Part shown: positions 33,304 through 41,787 of the stretch, in pieces
Numbering within the stretch: the stretch's first letter is position 1
Layout of the letters: every line of letters starts with the position of its first letter
Assembly (NCBI GenBank): GCA_012729555.1
Contig: JAAYCX010000010.1
Coordinates: forward strand, 1 to 64,000
DNA: 64,000 nt
DNA from: Acidobacteriota bacterium
GTDB lineage: Bacteria > Acidobacteriota > UBA6911
Direction: 5' to 3'
The notes under the pieces: generated by a model
Databases searched by the model: none
What the model was told of the DNA's origin: nothing
Seen by the model: the letters and a program-made list of their open reading frames with translations, nothing else
Translations under genes and position numbers: made by a program

Positions 33304-34224
33304 CTAGGCTTCCGGCCTGGGGGACAGCCCCGCGGCCTTGGCGATTTCGGCCACCTTCTCTTCCCATTCGATCGCCATGATGTGCACGCCGCGGACCCCG
33401 GGGACTTCCTTCAGCTGCTGGATCATCTCCACGCAGATCTTGACTCCCTCTTCCGCCTGCTTCTCCTTGGGAACGCCCTTGAGCCGGTCGATCAGCTCGT
33501 CCGGCACGTCCATCCCCGGGACCGACGTCTTCATGTACCGGGCCATGCCGGCCGACTTGAGCGGGGTGACGCCGGCCAGGATCGCGCATTTCTCGTGCAG
33601 TCCCCGTTCCCGCACCATCTCCATCCACTTGCCGAATTTTTCCAGGTTGTAGATGCACTGGGTCTGCAGAAACTGGCACCCGGCCTTCACCTTCTTGCCC
33701 AGGCGCATCGCGCGGATCTCGAAGGGGTCGGCGAAGGGGTTCTCCGCCGCGCCGATGAAGAGGTTGGGCCGTCCCTTGACTTCCTCGCCGCCGATCAGGC
33801 GCCCCTCGTCCCGCATGGTCCGCACGGTCTGGATCAGCTGCATGGAGTCGATGTCGAAGACGTTCTTGCCGCCGGGGTGGTCGCCGAAACTCTGGTGGTC
33901 GCCCGAGAGGCAGAGGATGTTGTTGATCCCGTGGGCCGCCGCCCCCAGGATGTCGCTCTGGATGGCGATCCGGTTGCGGTCCCGGCACACCATCTGAAGG
34001 ATCGGGTCGAATCCCATCTCCTTGAGGATGAGGCAGGAGGCGAAGGAACTCATCCTCACGACGGAGGTCTGGTTGTCGGTGACGTTTACGGCGTCGACCA
34101 CTCCCTTGAGCAGGCTCCCCTTTTTCCGCACCGCCTCCGCGTCCGCCCCTTTGGGCGGCCCGCACTCCGACGTCACCACAAATACGCCCTTTTCCAGGAG
34201 ACGCTCAATATTCGATTGTGTCAT
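33304..34224 (-). CDS. metF: methylenetetrahydrofolate reductase, MetF subunit
   Basis: Flavin-type methylene-THF reductase catalytic subunit of 306 residues. Recognisable blocks: FVVTSECGPPKGAD near the N-terminus, VNVTDNQTSVVRMSS, LQMVCRDRNRIAIQSDILGA, ILCLSGDHQSFGDHPG and the C-terminal GVRGVHIMAIEWEEKVAEI. It reduces methylene-THF to methyl-THF. With MetV upstream and HdrABC-MvhD in the same operon it matches the MetFV-HdrABC-MvhD complex known from Moorella. The ATG at 34224 is preferred over GTG 34236, which sits directly on the Shine-Dalgarno. Confidence 0.93.
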   Translation of the reverse strand: MTQSNIERLLEKGVFVVTSECGPPKGADAEAVRKKGSLLKGVVDAVNVTDNQTSVVRMSSFASCLILKEMGFDPILQMVCRDRNRIAIQSDILGAAAHGINNILCLSGDHQSFGDHPGGKNVFDIDSMQLIQTVRTMRDEGRLIGGEEVKGRPNLFIGAAENPFADPFEIRAMRLGKKVKAGCQFLQTQCIYNLEKFGKWMEMVRERGLHEKCAILAGVTPLKSAGMARYMKTSVPGMDVPDELIDRLKGVPKEKQAEEGVKICVEMIQQLKEVPGVRGVHIMAIEWEEKVAEIAKAAGLSPRPEA

Positions 34225-34260
34225 CACCGCCGTCACTCCTCCCTCTGGATATCGTAAACC

Positions 34261-34932
34261 CTAGCCCAACCTCAAATCCTCGCGCACCCGCGTGCGCGGG
34301 CCGCCGTCCCTGGACACCTTCCAGTCCTTGGCCGGGATGATGTCCTCGTACCGGTCCAGCTGGCCCAGCGTCTTCAGCCGGTCCACGATCAGCTGCCAGG
34401 CGCAGTCGGTGTCCTTGTTCACCTCGCACTTGCCGTTCGAGGAGCCCCCGCAGGGGCCGTTGAACAGGCTCTTGGCGCAGCGGGCGACCGGGCAGACGCC
34501 GCCGGTCAGGTGCAGGACGCACTCCCCGCACCCCTGGCAGCGCTCGCTCCACACCCCCTGCTCCAGGGTCACGCCCAGGAAGGTGGTGTTGATGGCGGGG
34601 AGCACGATTTTCTGGGGGTAGCGTTCGGCCGTGTACTGGATCCCCGCGCCGCAGGCCATGGAAACGACCGCCTCGTACTCGTCGAGGAAGGGCTTGATCT
34701 GGTCGATGTACTCGTAATCGCACTGGCGCTCCAGCGTGAATTCCTTGACCTCGATCTCCTGGCCGTCCTTGGCCCGGGCCATCTTCAGCTCGGACGCCAG
34801 GACCCCGACTTCGCGCTCCCCCCCCGCCGCACAGACCGTGATGCACTCCCTGCAGCCCAGGAGCAGTATCTTCTTGAAAGGCTTGACCATTTCCAGGATT
34901 TCTTCAAAAGGCTTCCTGTTCCCAACTATCAT
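34261..34932 (-). CDS. metV: MetV, zinc/Fe-S partner of methylene-THF reductase
   Basis: Protein of 223 residues matching the methylene-THF-reductase C-terminal-like family (MetV). Cysteine sets: LGCRECITVCAAGG near the N-terminus, then CQGCGECVLHLTGGVCPVARCAKSLFNGPCGG, and CEVNKDTDCAW. In acetogens MetV binds metal clusters and connects MetF to electron donors. AGGAGGT lies just before the ATG at 34932. It lies between mvhD and metF with short gaps. Confidence 0.92.
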   Translation of the reverse strand: MIVGNRKPFEEILEMVKPFKKILLLGCRECITVCAAGGEREVGVLASELKMARAKDGQEIEVKEFTLERQCDYEYIDQIKPFLDEYEAVVSMACGAGIQYTAERYPQKIVLPAINTTFLGVTLEQGVWSERCQGCGECVLHLTGGVCPVARCAKSLFNGPCGGSSNGKCEVNKDTDCAWQLIVDRLKTLGQLDRYEDIIPAKDWKVSRDGGPRTRVREDLRLG

Positions 34933-34991
34933 GACGACCTCCTAATGGCCCCCGGCTGCTCCCGCATTCAGGGGGAACTCTCGAATCGGTT

Positions 34992-35453
34992 CTAGGCAAC
35001 GAACGCGGCTTTCGCCTTCTTCAGGGGGCTGGGCCCGAGCCCGCGGATCTTCTCGGCCATTTCGTTGGCGATGGCCGCGAACCTCTGCCCCTGGGCGGCG
35101 CTCAGGTTGTACATCTCCAGCCGCTCCGGCTCGATTCCCACCTCCGCCAGCAGCGTCTTGGCGTACTCCACCCTTCTCCGGGCCCGGATGTTGCCCTTGA
35201 GGAAGTGGCATTCCCCCTCCATGCAGCCGGCGACATAGGCCCCGTCCACGCCGGACTCGAATGCCTTGAGGAGGGTGAGCACGTCCACCCTTCCCGTGCA
35301 GGGCACCTTGATGATCTTGATGAACGTCGGGTAACTGAGTCTCATCGAACCTGCCAGGTCCGCGGCGCTGTACGCTCAAAATTCGCAGCAGAAGGCCACG
35401 ATCTCCGGCTCGAACCCGGTGTTGTCCTGTGACGGCTGTGCTGTCGCTTCCAT
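34992..35453 (-). CDS. mvhD: MvhD-like iron-sulfur subunit, probable selenoprotein (in-frame UGA)
   Basis: Read through the TGA at 35378-35376, this gene encodes 153 residues of the MvhD/FrhD electron-transfer family, which links HdrA to a partner. The N-terminal motif becomes FCCEF-U-AYSAADLAGSMRL, aligned with the FCCNWC-AYAGADLAG type of homologues: the UGA takes the place of a cluster Cys. Homology runs seamlessly on both sides (then IIKVPCTGRVD and VAGCMEGECHFLKGN). ATG 35453 has AGGAG 6 nt upstream and lies 13 nt after hdrA. Starting at ATG 35345 would remove the conserved motif and leaves no Shine-Dalgarno. A SECIS-like hairpin follows the UGA. VhuD of methanococci is a known selenoprotein of this family. 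A nonsense mutation or sequencing error is the alternative. Confidence 0.82.
35346..35362 (-). promoter_or_regulatory. candidate bacterial SECIS hairpin
   Basis: Starting 13 nt after the UGA on the minus strand, CGGACCU pairs with AGGUUCG (one G-U) around the loop GGC. The apical loop starts 20 nt after the UGA and has G in its first two positions. Both agree with known rules for bacterial SECIS elements recognised by SelB. Assessed by eye only. Confidence 0.6.
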
Positions 35454-35466
35454 TCGCATCTCCTTT

Positions 35467-38400
35467 TTACATCGCTGCATTCGTCGCGGCGGGTTCCGCT
35501 TCCGCGGCCAGGGCGTCGGCCTTCGCCCAGAGCTGCGGTTCGCGGAAGTGCGCGAGCTCGATGGCCATGGCGGGGCACTCGGCCGCGCAGCTGCCGCAAC
35601 CGTGGCACTTCGCCGGGTCGATCTCGGCCGCCCCCTCGATATTGATGACGGGCACCTCGTAGGGGCAGACGCGGACGCAGGTCAGGCAGGCGGCGCAGCG
35701 GTCCCCGTCGACCACCGCCACGATCCCCCCGACCATCATCTTTTCCTTCGAGAGGATGGTCGAGGCCCGGGCGGCGGCCGCGCTCGCCTGCGACAGCGTT
35801 TCCGTGATCAGCTTCGGCCCGTGCGCCCCGCCGGCCAGGTACATGCCGTCGGTGGCCAGGTCCACGGGGCGCAGCTTCATGTGCGCCTCGAGGAAGAAGC
35901 CGTCCAGCGTGCGCTGGAGCTTCAGGACGCCGGCGACCTCGTCGTTGTTGCGCGGGTGGGTCGCGGAGGAGAGGACGACCAGGTCGGGAGCGATCTCGAT
36001 CCGCTCCCGGATGACCTTGTCGGTGAAGGCCACCTTCAGCGCGTCCCCCTCCCTGCGGACCTCGGGCTTCTCCTCCGGCTCGTAGCGGACGAACAGGACC
36101 CCCTTTTCTCGCGCCTCGGCGTAGTAGGGTTCCGCCAGCCCGTAGGTGCGCACGTCGCGGTAGAGGACCGTGACCTCCGTCTCGGGGCGCAGTTCCTTGA
36201 GCTTCAGGGCGTTCTTGACGGCGGTGGCGCAGCAGGTCCGGCTGCAGTTGGGCCACTCTTCGTTGCGGCTGCCCACGCACTGGATCATCACCACCTTCCC
36301 GGCGGCGGCGACTTCGGGGGATCCGCCGGCGATCTTCCCTTCCAGGTCGAGCTGGGTGAGGACGCGCGGGTCCTCGCCGTAGAGGTATTCCGCCGGTTTC
36401 GCCTCCTCGGCGCCGGTGGCCACGATCACGACGCCGTGGTCGATCTTCCGGTATTCCCCGTCGGGGCCCGCCTTGACGCCGGTCGTGAAGTTCCCCTTCG
36501 ACCCGCCCGAATCGATGATGCTGGCCTTGAAGAGGACGTGGATCAGCGGGTGGTTTTCCACCCTGTCTATGGTGCCTTCGAGCAGGGCGCGGACGTCCTG
36601 CCGGTCGAGGGTGTAGTGGAGGTTCCACAGGTTCCCCCCCAGCCGGTCCTCCTTCTCCAGCAGGAAGACTTCGTACCCCTGGTCGGCGATGTTGAGCGCC
36701 GCCGTCATCCCCGCGATGCCGCCGCCGACCACGAGGGCCTTCTGCGTCACGGCCACCAGGTGCTCGTTGAGCGGCTCGATCATGCGCGCGTTGGCGATCG
36801 CCATCCGCACCAGGTCCTCCGCCTTTTCGGTCGCCTCCGTCTTCTGCTTCATGTGGACCCAGGAGCACTGGTCGCGGATGTTGGCCATCTCGAACAGGTA
36901 CTTGTTCAGGCCCGCCTGCCGCACGGTCTCGCGGAAGAGCGCCTCGTGCGTGCGCGGGGAGCAGGACGCGACGACGACGCGGTTGAGCTTGTGTTCCCGG
37001 ATCGCGTCCTGGATCTTGGCCTGGGTGTCCTGGGAGCAGGTGTAGAGGTTCTCCTCGACGTGGACGACGTTCTTGAGCGTGCGCGCGTAATCCCGCACCT
37101 TCGGGACGTTGACGACCCCGCCGATGTTGATGCCGCAGTTGCAGACGAACACCCCGATGCGGGGCTCCTGGCCGGCGACGTCCGTCTCGGGGGGGTATTC
37201 CTTCTTCACCGTCATGGTGCCGCGCGCCGCCGACAGGGGGGCCATGGCGTCGGCCGCCGCCCCGCTGGCCTGCGCCACGGTCTCGGGGATGTCCTTCGGC
37301 CCCTGGTACGCGCCCGAGACGTAGACGCCGTCCTTCGAGGTGCGGTGGGGCTCGAAGCCCGCGGTCTTCGCGAACCCGTACTTGTCCACCTCCACGCCGA
37401 GGCGCCGGGCCATCGCGACCGTATGCCCGGCGGGCTCCAGGCCGACGGAGAGGACCACCATCTCGAATTCCTCCTCGACGACCTTCCCGGCCTCGTCGAT
37501 GTAGGTGATGATGAGGTTCTTGGTGCTGAAGTCCTCCCGGACCCTGGAGACGGAACACTTGACGTAACGCACGCCCGATTCGGTCCGGGCGCGCTCGTAG
37601 TAGGTCTCGAAGTTCTTGCCGAACGCCCGGATATCCATGTAGAAGATCGTGGGCTCGATGTTGCCGTCGTGCTCGCGCGCGATGACGGCTTCCTTGGTGG
37701 CGTACATGCAGCAGACCGAGGAGCAGTAATCGTGGCCGCAGGAGCTGTCGCGGCTCCCCACGCACTGGATGAAGGCGACCTTCTTCGGGTGCTTGCCGTC
37801 GGAGATCCGCTGGACCGTGCCCGCGTAGGGGCCGCTGGCGCTGAGGATGCGCTCGAATTCGAGACTGGTGACGACGTTGGGGTACTGCCCGTAGCCCAGT
37901 TCGGGCCTGATGTCGCCGTCGACGGTCTTGAATCCCGGGGTGAGGACCACGGCCCCGACCTTCAGCTCCTCCACCTGGTCGCGGTCGTCGTGGTTGATCG
38001 CGCCGGCGCGGCAGACGTAGGCGCACTGGTTGCACTCGGAGCAGATGCCGCATTCCAGGCAGCGCTTGGCCGCCTCGATCGCCTGCTCCTCCGTAAGCGC
38101 CGCTTCCACCTCCAGGAAATCGCGCCTGCGCTCGGCAGCCGGGCGTTTCGCGGGCTCCTCCCGCTTCGCCCGCGCCTGCTCCTCGACCCGCTCCTCCTTT
38201 TCCTCGTCGCTGACCTTGGCTTCCGGGAGCCTTTCGGGAACCTCAACGACGGGGGGCCAGGCCTTGGTGGGTTCGGCCTGGAGGAAGGCGTGGATGGCGC
38301 GCGCGGCCTTGTGGCCCGCGTCGATGGCGTCCACGACGAAGGTGGTCCCGGTGACGGCGTCGCCGCCGGCGAAAATGCCCGGCACGTTGGTCGCCATGGT

Positions 38401-39978
38401 GACCGGGTCGGCCTGGATCGTGCGGCCGCGCACCGTCTCTATCTTGTCCCCGAGCGGGGCCAGGTCCGGTTTCTGGCCCACGGCGAAGATGACGAGGTCG
38501 CAGGGGATGACGGTCTCGGTCCCCGGGATCTCGTCGAAATCGGGGCGGCCGTCCACGAATCCCCTGAAGTCGACGTCGACGGTGCGGACGCCGGTGACGC
38601 GCCCCGCCTCGTCGGTGATTTCCTTGAACGTCCGGCCGGCGAGGACCTCGATCCCCTCGTCCCGGGCGTCGCGCACCTCCCAGTCGTGGGCCGGCATCCG
38701 GTCCTCGCTCTCGAGGCACGACATCCCGACCCAGTCGGCGCCCAGGCGGACCGAGGACATGGCGGCGTCGATGGCGACGTTGCCGCCGCCGAGCACCAGC
38801 ACGCGCTTTCCCTTGACGACATCGGGGCGCCTGGAGGGTTCGCTGAGGCTTACCTCGCGCAGGAAGTCGGTGGCCATGTGAACGCCGGGCAGGTCGTTCC
38901 CCGGGATCGGCAGCTTGACGCCCGCGTGGGCCCCCACGGCCACGAAGACGGCGTCGTATTCCCCGAGCAGGGCCGCGGCGTCGTCGACGCGGGTGTTGAG
39001 CCTGAGGTCGATCCCGCGGGAGACGATCTCCTCGACCTCGCGCTGGACCAGGTCGTAGGGCATGCGGTATTCGGGGATCCCCACGCGCATCATGCCGCCG
39101 GCGGCCGGCAGGGAGTCGAACACGGTGACGGCGTAGTTGCGGTTGGCCAGGTCGGCGGCGGTGGTCAGGCCGGCCGGGCCTGCGCCGATGACGGCCACCT
39201 TCCTGCCCAGCCCGCTGGTGTCGGGTTTGACCTGGACCCCGGCGGCGTACGCCTTCTCGACCTCCTCGGGGTGGGCGAACGCCCAGTCGGTGACGAAGCG
39301 TTTGAGGTGCATGATGTTGACCGCTTCGTGCCCGCCGTTTTCCCCGCGGCTGCAGGCCTCTTCGCACTTGTGGTTACAGACGCGGCCGCAGACGGAGGGG
39401 AAGGGGTTGTCCTCCTTGATCGTGCGGTAGGCGTCGGCGTACCGTCTTTCCCGGATCAGGGCCACGTAGCCCATGGCCCGCTGCTCGATCGGGCAGGCGT
39501 TGCGGCAGGGGGCCTCGCCCCTCTTTTCGATGGCGAAGGCGTTCGGGATCGCCTGGGGGTACCTCTTGTAGATGGCCTTGCGGGTGTCGATCAGGGCGTT
39601 GAATTCGTTGGGCCGGGAGATGGGGCAGACGGCGGCGCAGTCGCCGCAACCCGTGCACTTCTGCAGGTCGACGAAGCGCGCGCGCTTGCGGATGCGGACC
39701 GAGAAGTTCCCCGGCTCGCCCGAAATGGCCTCCACGTCGGTTGCGGTCAGCACCTTGATGTTCAGGTTGCAGCCCGCTTCGACCAGCTTGGGCGATACGA
39801 TGCACATGGCGCAGTCGTTGGTCGGGAAGGTCTTGTCGAGCTGCGCCATCGTTCCGCCGATGGCGGGGGACGTCTCCACCATGTAGACGTAATATCCCGA
39901 TTCCGCCAGGTCCAGGGAGGACTGAATCCCGGCGATGCCTCCGCCTACGACCATTACGGCTCCAACTTTTTCCGCCAT
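35467..39978 (-). CDS. hdrA: HdrA fusion: HdrA-like + NfnB/GltD-like + complete HdrA
   Basis: Giant heterodisulfide-reductase-type flavoprotein of 1503 residues. Residues 1-120: HdrA-type FAD segment (VVGGGIAGIQSSLDLA, DCAMCIVSPKLVE) with a ferredoxin motif CTGCGDCAAVCP (108-119). Residues ~121-575: NADPH:glutamate-synthase-beta/NfnB-like module with its own cysteine set and two dinucleotide motifs (VIGAGPAG, VLGGGNVA). Residues 640-656: another cluster motif. Residues ~660-920: the rest of the first HdrA. From 940: a second, complete HdrA (GVFVCNCGINIGG, VVGGGIAGMTAALNIA) ending with two ferredoxin motifs. HdrA is the flavin bifurcation site; the inserted module supplies a probable NAD(P)H site. 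GAGGGA precedes the ATG. Confidence 0.93.
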   Translation of the reverse strand: MAEKVGAVMVVGGGIAGIQSSLDLAESGYYVYMVETSPAIGGTMAQLDKTFPTNDCAMCIVSPKLVEAGCNLNIKVLTATDVEAISGEPGNFSVRIRKRARFVDLQKCTGCGDCAAVCPISRPNEFNALIDTRKAIYKRYPQAIPNAFAIEKRGEAPCRNACPIEQRAMGYVALIRERRYADAYRTIKEDNPFPSVCGRVCNHKCEEACSRGENGGHEAVNIMHLKRFVTDWAFAHPEEVEKAYAAGVQVKPDTSGLGRKVAVIGAGPAGLTTAADLANRNYAVTVFDSLPAAGGMMRVGIPEYRMPYDLVQREVEEIVSRGIDLRLNTRVDDAAALLGEYDAVFVAVGAHAGVKLPIPGNDLPGVHMATDFLREVSLSEPSRRPDVVKGKRVLVLGGGNVAIDAAMSSVRLGADWVGMSCLESEDRMPAHDWEVRDARDEGIEVLAGRTFKEITDEAGRVTGVRTVDVDFRGFVDGRPDFDEIPGTETVIPCDLVIFAVGQKPDLAPLGDKIETVRGRTIQADPVTMATNVPGIFAGGDAVTGTTFVVDAIDAGHKAARAIHAFLQAEPTKAWPPVVEVPERLPEAKVSDEEKEERVEEQARAKREEPAKRPAAERRRDFLEVEAALTEEQAIEAAKRCLECGICSECNQCAYVCRAGAINHDDRDQVEELKVGAVVLTPGFKTVDGDIRPELGYGQYPNVVTSLEFERILSASGPYAGTVQRISDGKHPKKVAFIQCVGSRDSSCGHDYCSSVCCMYATKEAVIAREHDGNIEPTIFYMDIRAFGKNFETYYERARTESGVRYVKCSVSRVREDFSTKNLIITYIDEAGKVVEEEFEMVVLSVGLEPAGHTVAMARRLGVEVDKYGFAKTAGFEPHRTSKDGVYVSGAYQGPKDIPETVAQASGAAADAMAPLSAARGTMTVKKEYPPETDVAGQEPRIGVFVCNCGINIGGVVNVPKVRDYARTLKNVVHVEENLYTCSQDTQAKIQDAIREHKLNRVVVASCSPRTHEALFRETVRQAGLNKYLFEMANIRDQCSWVHMKQKTEATEKAEDLVRMAIANARMIEPLNEHLVAVTQKALVVGGGIAGMTAALNIADQGYEVFLLEKEDRLGGNLWNLHYTLDRQDVRALLEGTIDRVENHPLIHVLFKASIIDSGGSKGNFTTGVKAGPDGEYRKIDHGVVIVATGAEEAKPAEYLYGEDPRVLTQLDLEGKIAGGSPEVAAAGKVVMIQCVGSRNEEWPNCSRTCCATAVKNALKLKELRPETEVTVLYRDVRTYGLAEPYYAEAREKGVLFVRYEPEEKPEVRREGDALKVAFTDKVIRERIEIAPDLVVLSSATHPRNNDEVAGVLKLQRTLDGFFLEAHMKLRPVDLATDGMYLAGGAHGPKLITETLSQASAAAARASTILSKEKMMVGGIVAVVDGDRCAACLTCVRVCPYEVPVINIEGAAEIDPAKCHGCGSCAAECPAMAIELAHFREPQLWAKADALAAEAEPAATNAAM

Positions 39979-40037
39979 GCTTTCCCTCGCAATCTTTTCA
40001 TGGGAGCGGCCGCGCAGGCCGCCCGGTCCCACAATTC

Positions 40038-40892
40038 TCACTGCACCAACCCCTTGGCCTTCAGCATCGGGACGGGATCGATGAAGTGCCGTTTCAGCCA
40101 CTTCCCGGTGTCCGGGTGTCCCATGGCCAGCCCCATCAGTTCGGTGTAGTAAAGCACCGGGATGCCGATTTTCCGGCCGAGGTCCTTCTCGATGTCCTCC
40201 TGGCGCGTGTCCAGGTTCATCTGGCACATGGAGCATCCGGCCACCACGCAGTCGGCCCCGGTCTTCGCGGCCTCGACCAGAATCCTGCCGGTCAGTTTCT
40301 TGAAGATGTCGAGGCGCGTGAACATCAGGCTGGCGCCGCAGCAGTCGGTCTTGTAGGACCACTGCAGGGCCTCCGCCCCGAGCGTCTTCACGATCCCGTC
40401 CATGTGGGTGGGATTTTCGTAATTCTTGATCCCCGTCAGGCGGGGGGGGCGCACCGGGAGGCACCCGTAATAGCATACGGCCTTGAGCCCCGTGAGGGGC
40501 TTGACGATCCTTTTCTTCACCTCTTCGACCACCGGCTTGTCGCACAGGTAGTCCATGGCGAACCGGATGGTCACCTTCCCCTCGTAGGGGAAGCTGACCT
40601 TCCTGCCATGTTCCTTGACCTCGTACTCCGCCCCCTTGAAGCGGCTGTAGCAGTTGGCGCAGGGGACCAGCAGGTCGCGGTCGCTCCGCTCGGCGATGGC
40701 GAGGTTCCGGGCCGGCATCTCGATCGCCAGCTGTTCGTCCAGGGAATGGGCGCTCGTGGCGCCGCAGCAGGTCCAGTCGTCCAGTTCGTGAAGCTTGATC
40801 CCCAGCTGCGCCGTGACGCCCCGGACCGATTCGTCAAATTCCTTGGAGGTGCCGTGGAGCGAACATCCGGGGAAATAGGAGAATTCCATCAT
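40038..40892 (-). CDS. hdrB: heterodisulfide reductase-like subunit HdrB
   Basis: HdrB of 284 residues with both cysteine-rich CCG signatures: the first around FPGCSLH...DDWTCCGATSAH...VPCANCY, the second around CYYGCLPVRPP...TDCCGASLMF...AGCSMCQMN. These bind the non-cubane [4Fe-4S] pair in methanogen HdrB. In this operon, without methanogenesis, its disulfide or other acceptor is unknown. The ATGA overlap with hdrC (40889-40892) implies coupling. Confidence 0.93.
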   Translation of the reverse strand: MMEFSYFPGCSLHGTSKEFDESVRGVTAQLGIKLHELDDWTCCGATSAHSLDEQLAIEMPARNLAIAERSDRDLLVPCANCYSRFKGAEYEVKEHGRKVSFPYEGKVTIRFAMDYLCDKPVVEEVKKRIVKPLTGLKAVCYYGCLPVRPPRLTGIKNYENPTHMDGIVKTLGAEALQWSYKTDCCGASLMFTRLDIFKKLTGRILVEAAKTGADCVVAGCSMCQMNLDTRQEDIEKDLGRKIGIPVLYYTELMGLAMGHPDTGKWLKRHFIDPVPMLKAKGLVQ

Positions 40893-41446
40893 CGCGCCCC
40901 TCCTTTCCCCACCTCTTTAAAAAGGTTGCGGAACGCCGCGCCCCCCTTGAAGCCCGGGAAAAGCCCCATCCTGCCCCTGAGAAACGCCTTCAGTCCCCAT
41001 CCCATAAATCCGCCCAAGCCTCCGCTTTTCAGTTCGTACAATGCAAATCCCGGCTCCCAGGTGCGGCCCGTGTACTTCGTGAGACTCAGGAAGAACTTGT
41101 GAAACAGGGAAATGTTCTTGTCTCCGCTCTCCGCGCGCGTCCGGTGCGCGATGGCGCGCAGGGTGTCCATCACCTTGGCGATGTCGATCTGGTTGGGGCA
41201 GCGGGTGCTGCAGGTGTGGCATGAGGCGCAGAGCCATATCGTGTTAGAAGACAATACCTTGTCCCGGTGGCCGTACTGTATGTGCCGGAACAGCTGGTTG
41301 GGCAGGATATCCATGGCAAAATTGAGGGGGCATCCTGCCGAGCATTTCTGGCACTGGTAGCAGTTCTGGATCTTCTCTCCGCTTTCCTCGTAAATCTCTG
41401 AAAGCAGGGGGGTACTGTTGTTCGGTGCCTGCCCGCGTGCGTCCAT
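40889..41446 (-). CDS. hdrC: heterodisulfide reductase-like subunit HdrC
   Basis: HdrC of 185 residues with two [4Fe-4S] motifs, CYQCQKCSAGCP and CASCHTCSTRCP, followed by a helical C-terminus. It wires HdrB to HdrA. GGAG lies 7 nt before the ATG at 41446. It is the first gene of the leftward operon, so the promoter should lie in the 341-bp gap before typA. Confidence 0.92.
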   Translation of the reverse strand: MDARGQAPNNSTPLLSEIYEESGEKIQNCYQCQKCSAGCPLNFAMDILPNQLFRHIQYGHRDKVLSSNTIWLCASCHTCSTRCPNQIDIAKVMDTLRAIAHRTRAESGDKNISLFHKFFLSLTKYTGRTWEPGFALYELKSGGLGGFMGWGLKAFLRGRMGLFPGFKGGAAFRNLFKEVGKGGAR

Positions 41447-41787
41447 GTGTTCACTCCAGTTCTTGGCTGGGGAGGATTTTCCAGGTATAGTCGGAGGAAA
41501 TGATGCGGGGATGCTGATATCCTTTCGCAATCCTGCCTGCCGCGCGACTCGAATCCCGGTGCCGTCCTTGATTCCACAACCCTCTGTCAGACATAACCTC
41601 AACAGATTAAAATAGCATAGGAACGGGTACCCGGAAAGGGTGAGATTGGCAAGCAATTTCAATTCCGGGACGGCACCGGGGGGGCAAAAAAGGCGCCAAA
41701 AAAGGGGGGGAGCCGCACGCGGCCCTTGGAGTTGGAGCCTCCGGGGACTATCCTGCATACTCCATGAAGCGGAACAACGAGGATTGA
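41447..41787. other. 341-bp divergent intergenic region between hdrC and typA
   Basis: Must hold the promoters of both operons. AT-rich patches occur around 41590-41620 and 41486-41491 (GGTATA), but I cannot assign -35/-10 pairs with confidence. A tRNA T-loop-like string near 41550 lacks a foldable tRNA. G- and A-runs at 41680-41712 are notable. No gene seen. Confidence 0.5.

Follow-up and report, generated by a model that had tools for sequence, protein, structure and literature searches.

A predicted selenocysteine form of MvhD in an hdrCBA-mvhD-metV-metF operon of an acidobacterial genus

In solved complexes, the [2Fe-2S] cluster of MvhD hands electrons to HdrA (PMC6019823; PMC12350162). 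Selenocysteine (Sec) members of the FrhD/MvhD family were described in bacteria by Zhang et al. in 2006, with 19 genes in Deltaproteobacteria and Firmicutes (PMC1794560), of which Syntrophobacter fumaroxidans accounts for eight and Moorella thermoacetica and Carboxydothermus for one apiece. The mvhD of Desulfococcus multivorans (Dmul_C28840/50) was annotated with a UGA and a SECIS in 2016 (PMC5109826), and a 2026 review gives the family as CxxU (PMC13188914). A preliminary description of the acidobacterial locus studied here had presented it as a bacterial counterpart of an archaeal selenoprotein, but the novelty this implied does not stand, as the reports of 2006 and 2016 came earlier. The selenoprotein family is already known, and it is the host and the gene neighbourhood that are little described; what is new is a predicted Sec-MvhD in one acidobacterial genus, nested in a mainly desulfobacterial Sec clade and constantly linked to metV. 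We found no paper in the open-access literature that names a Sec-MvhD of Acidobacteriota or ties the Sec form explicitly to metVF.

In this study, we analysed a window of 64,000 nucleotides from an Acidobacteriota assembly (3.83 Mb, 98 contigs, 98.9% complete; the window lies on contig C10). The mvhD gene, a member of the FlpD/FrhD family, occupies 34992-35453 on the minus strand and runs from an ATG at 35453 to a TAG ending at 34992 as one open frame except for a TGA at 35378-35376, giving a product of 153 aa with Sec predicted at residue 26. The Pfam FlpD profile (PF02662) covers the read-through product (1-123/123, E 1.5e-48) and spans the UGA, whose column is occupied by Cys in three aligned PDB homologues. 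Upstream, a Shine-Dalgarno AAGGAG is read from the sequence at 35465-35460, 6 nt before the ATG. The open reading frame called under table 11 in the mvhD frame comprises 34992-35345 only and loses FCCEFUAYSAADLAG, so that a default gene call would cut mvhD short and drop the UGA-bearing motif. On all these points the preliminary description was accurate: it had proposed an otherwise continuous MvhD homologue broken by a single in-frame TGA, a ribosome-binding site and ATG upstream at 35453, and a standard gene start at 35345 that loses the motif.

Its further proposal, that the TGA takes the place of the conserved Cys of the FCCxxC motif, was borne out by the relatives. Among 59 related loci from a scan of GTDB genomes, the codon in the UGA column was TGA in 27, TGC or TGT in 28 and another codon in 4 distant ones, so that an alignment of residue 26, which had been suggested as a check, sets 28 TGA sequences (window included) against 28 with a Cys codon. 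The 27 TGA loci come from 25 other genomes of several phyla. Compared with its nearest relative, L008, the window differs downstream of the UGA by 19 synonymous and 6 nonsynonymous codons, and in the 13 codons upstream by 1 synonymous and no nonsynonymous codon, a pattern indicating that mvhD is under purifying selection. While selA was found in 22 of the 25 genomes that carry a TGA locus (those lacking it being three small assemblies of 1.4-2.1 Mb), it was also found in 15 of the 25 genomes with Cys loci, and because genomes with the Cys form so often have selA, its co-occurrence is a weak, mildly informative discriminator between the two forms. In two Desulfobacterales-type loci, L027 and L029, the Sec codon reads TGT and the hairpin has decayed. 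At another related locus, L045:1090, the hdrA frame also contains a TGA, in the position of a conserved Cys (FPTNDCAMU-IISPK), and in that operon both hdrA and mvhD would encode selenoproteins.

The preliminary description had named an absence of sel genes as grounds for rejecting Sec, and a genome search found the whole set: selA (563.7 bits), selB (380.4 bits) and selD (368.7 bits), all exceeding curated cut-offs, and a tRNA-Sec with anticodon UCA (72.4 bits). The selD gene is itself interrupted in frame by a TGA at its usual Sec position (TTAAGU-AAKMGP), and in two fdhA genes the codon for the molybdenum ligand is TGA (RTU-HAPS on C53 and RVU-HGPT on C11), bringing the predicted selenoprotein genes of this genome, found family by family, to at least four. 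The second of these formate dehydrogenase-like genes (L085, G000:C11:53528-56275) is matched by the FdhA model only in several separate pieces. Beyond the window, the same contig encodes two more FlpD domains without TGA (L081 and L083; G000:C10:83540-83908 and C10:72521-72859), one of them within an open frame of 652 aa that may encode an HdrA-MvhD fusion.

A SECIS-like hairpin of 7 bp, CGGACCU-GGC-AGGUUCG, lies at 35346-35362 on the minus strand. Exactly as the preliminary description had it, the hairpin begins 13 nt past the UGA and has an apical loop that starts with G, namely GGC at 35355-35353, 20 nt past the UGA. The folding energy of this single hairpin was not above chance (z = 0.19), and because it is unexceptional the case for a SECIS rests on comparison. 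In the TGA genes, the DNA from 13 to 30 nt past the UGA is frozen at synonymous sites: codons 31-36 are nearly invariant across the 28 TGA sequences, the window among them (GCG GAC CTG GCA GGT TCG), whereas in these genes codons 27-30 and 38-45 show synonymous variation and the Cys genes encode largely the same amino acids at codons 31-36 but with many different codons. Over the seven pairs, 194 of 196 cells are paired in the 28 TGA sequences (99%) versus 110 of 196 in the 28 Cys sequences (56%). In three desulfobacterial sequences the outer C-G is exchanged for G-C, through a change of Ala31 to Gly together with TCG to TCC; as the three share one clade, this was scored as one compensatory event, the only one seen. 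The conserved hairpin of the TGA genes thus behaves as a bacterial SECIS should, and we regard it as a predicted element of this kind.

Because the sel machinery, the exchange of Cys and TGA among relatives and the conserved hairpin coincide, the UGA at codon 26 is very probably decoded as Sec. Alternatively, translation might stop at the UGA and restart at the ATG at 35345, yielding a protein of 117 aa that lacks the Cys motif. Such a restart would use an in-frame ATG 30 nt past the UGA, which an AGG precedes by 4 nt, and the standard call yields exactly such a gene, but the Cys relatives run uninterrupted through the UGA position, the sequence upstream of the TGA is conserved, and the AGG by itself leaves both the frozen codons 31-34 and the paired change from C-G to G-C unexplained, which makes a split gene very improbable.

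We give even less credence to a pseudogene or an error of sequencing or assembly. One wrong base is enough to create a lone TGA, but the codon recurs in 27 loci of 25 further genomes from several phyla and across 9 species of the genus, which refutes this reading, and the frame is otherwise intact, with synonymous changes dominating. The chance that the UGA is read as some other residue, by readthrough or under a changed code, seems just as slight: the frame would stay open in any code that treats TGA as sense, but TGA serves as an ordinary stop for the adjacent hdrB and hdrC of the same genome, the column is otherwise Cys, and the sel system is complete. We therefore favour, with a probability of about 0.96, the reading that this mvhD encodes a selenocysteine form of MvhD within an HdrABC-MvhD-MetVF complex, its UGA being recoded via SelB, tRNA-Sec and the hairpin.

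The gene lies in a contiguous minus-strand series (33304-41758) with the reading order hdrC, hdrB, hdrA, mvhD, metV, metF. The hdrC gene (40889-41758; Fer4_17/Fer4_8) probably has its true start further inside, and it is followed by hdrB (40038-40892; PF02754 CCG twice) and by hdrA (35467-39978; about 1503 aa, Met offset), which matches Pyr_redox_2, Fer4_20 and Fer4, has no in-frame TGA in the window, and encodes a double HdrA-like protein into which an NAD(P)H domain resembling NfnB/GltD is inserted (Fer4_20, Pyr_redox_2). Downstream of mvhD are metV (34261-34932; PF12225, E 7e-39), for the partner subunit of methylene-THF reductase, and metF (33304-34236; PF02219, E 2.2e-41), for methylene-THF reductase itself. 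Among 27 related loci, metV adjoins the Sec gene on its downstream side in 25, and the remaining two stop at contig edges.

In the mechanism we propose, SelB and tRNA-Sec, together with the downstream hairpin, would recode codon 26 so that Sec replaces the usual cysteine of the CxxC pair, and MvhD would act as the [2Fe-2S] electron-transfer subunit feeding HdrA. The residue might be a ligand of the cluster or a redox residue near it. The complex would couple NAD(P)H, a low-potential carrier and methylene-/methyl-THF, probably by flavin-based bifurcation or confurcation. The metV-linked operon exists with either a Sec or a Cys orthologue and so offers a natural comparison for the role of selenium in a flavin-based bifurcating complex.

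A scan of 396 genomes from 210 genera of the phylum for the exact combination of UGA and hairpin recovered it in 9 of the 10 species sampled from the window's genus and, as a strict pattern that variants could escape, in none outside it; the nearest named records are Acidobacteria MAGs. On a tree of MvhD and MetV with residue 26 masked, the TGA and Cys forms need just two changes. The acidobacterial sequences group together (support 89, not starred) as sister to Syntrophales-like sequences, and both sit within a larger, mostly desulfobacterial TGA group. The distribution in a single genus, nested in this mainly desulfobacterial Sec clade, suggests horizontal transfer into the acidobacterial genus, with the selenoprotein gene and its SECIS putatively passed together between phyla. 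The simplest reading would be that Sec was gained once (or inherited from a single shared Sec ancestor), followed by this transfer and by a likely reversion from Sec to Cys in L027, which lies inside the TGA group; with midpoint rooting, the direction is not proved. In a more far-reaching scenario, which we consider rather doubtful, Sec would coordinate the [2Fe-2S] cluster of MvhD directly as a selenolate and tune the cluster's potential for confurcation linked to MetVF in bacteria of the syntrophic type. The complete Sec operon, SECIS included, would then have come from a Syntrophales-like donor and entered a single acidobacterial genus in which Sec decoding was either already present or likewise gained.

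Among known systems, the operon hdrCBA-mvhD-metV-metF resembles that of the bifurcating methylene-THF reductase of Moorella thermoacetica, MetFV-HdrABC-MvhD, in having the same six-gene set and a long double HdrA (PMC5736913, PMC9012536), while host and subunit details differ. The second acceptor of the Moorella complex is marked as unknown (PMC5861303), and the open-access papers searched gave no direct answer as to whether the Sec-FrhD of this species (PMC1794560) is the MvhD of its metVF cluster. The mvhD of D. multivorans likewise has a UGA with a SECIS in a bacterial gene (PMC5109826), but its host is a sulfate reducer and metV is not mentioned in that report (PMC5109826). VhuD of methanococci is a homologous Sec-containing [2Fe-2S] connector to HdrA (PMC6019823, PMC2933860), yet it is archaeal and hydrogenase-linked, with an archaeal SECIS system. 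With the bacterial Sec-FrhD/MvhD proteins (PMC1794560; PMC13188914), the locus shares PF02662, CxxU and the bacterial-type position of the SECIS just past the UGA; whereas hydrogenase operons of the order hdrA-frhD-frhG-frhA were highlighted there, the gene described here belongs to an acidobacterium and to a metVF operon.
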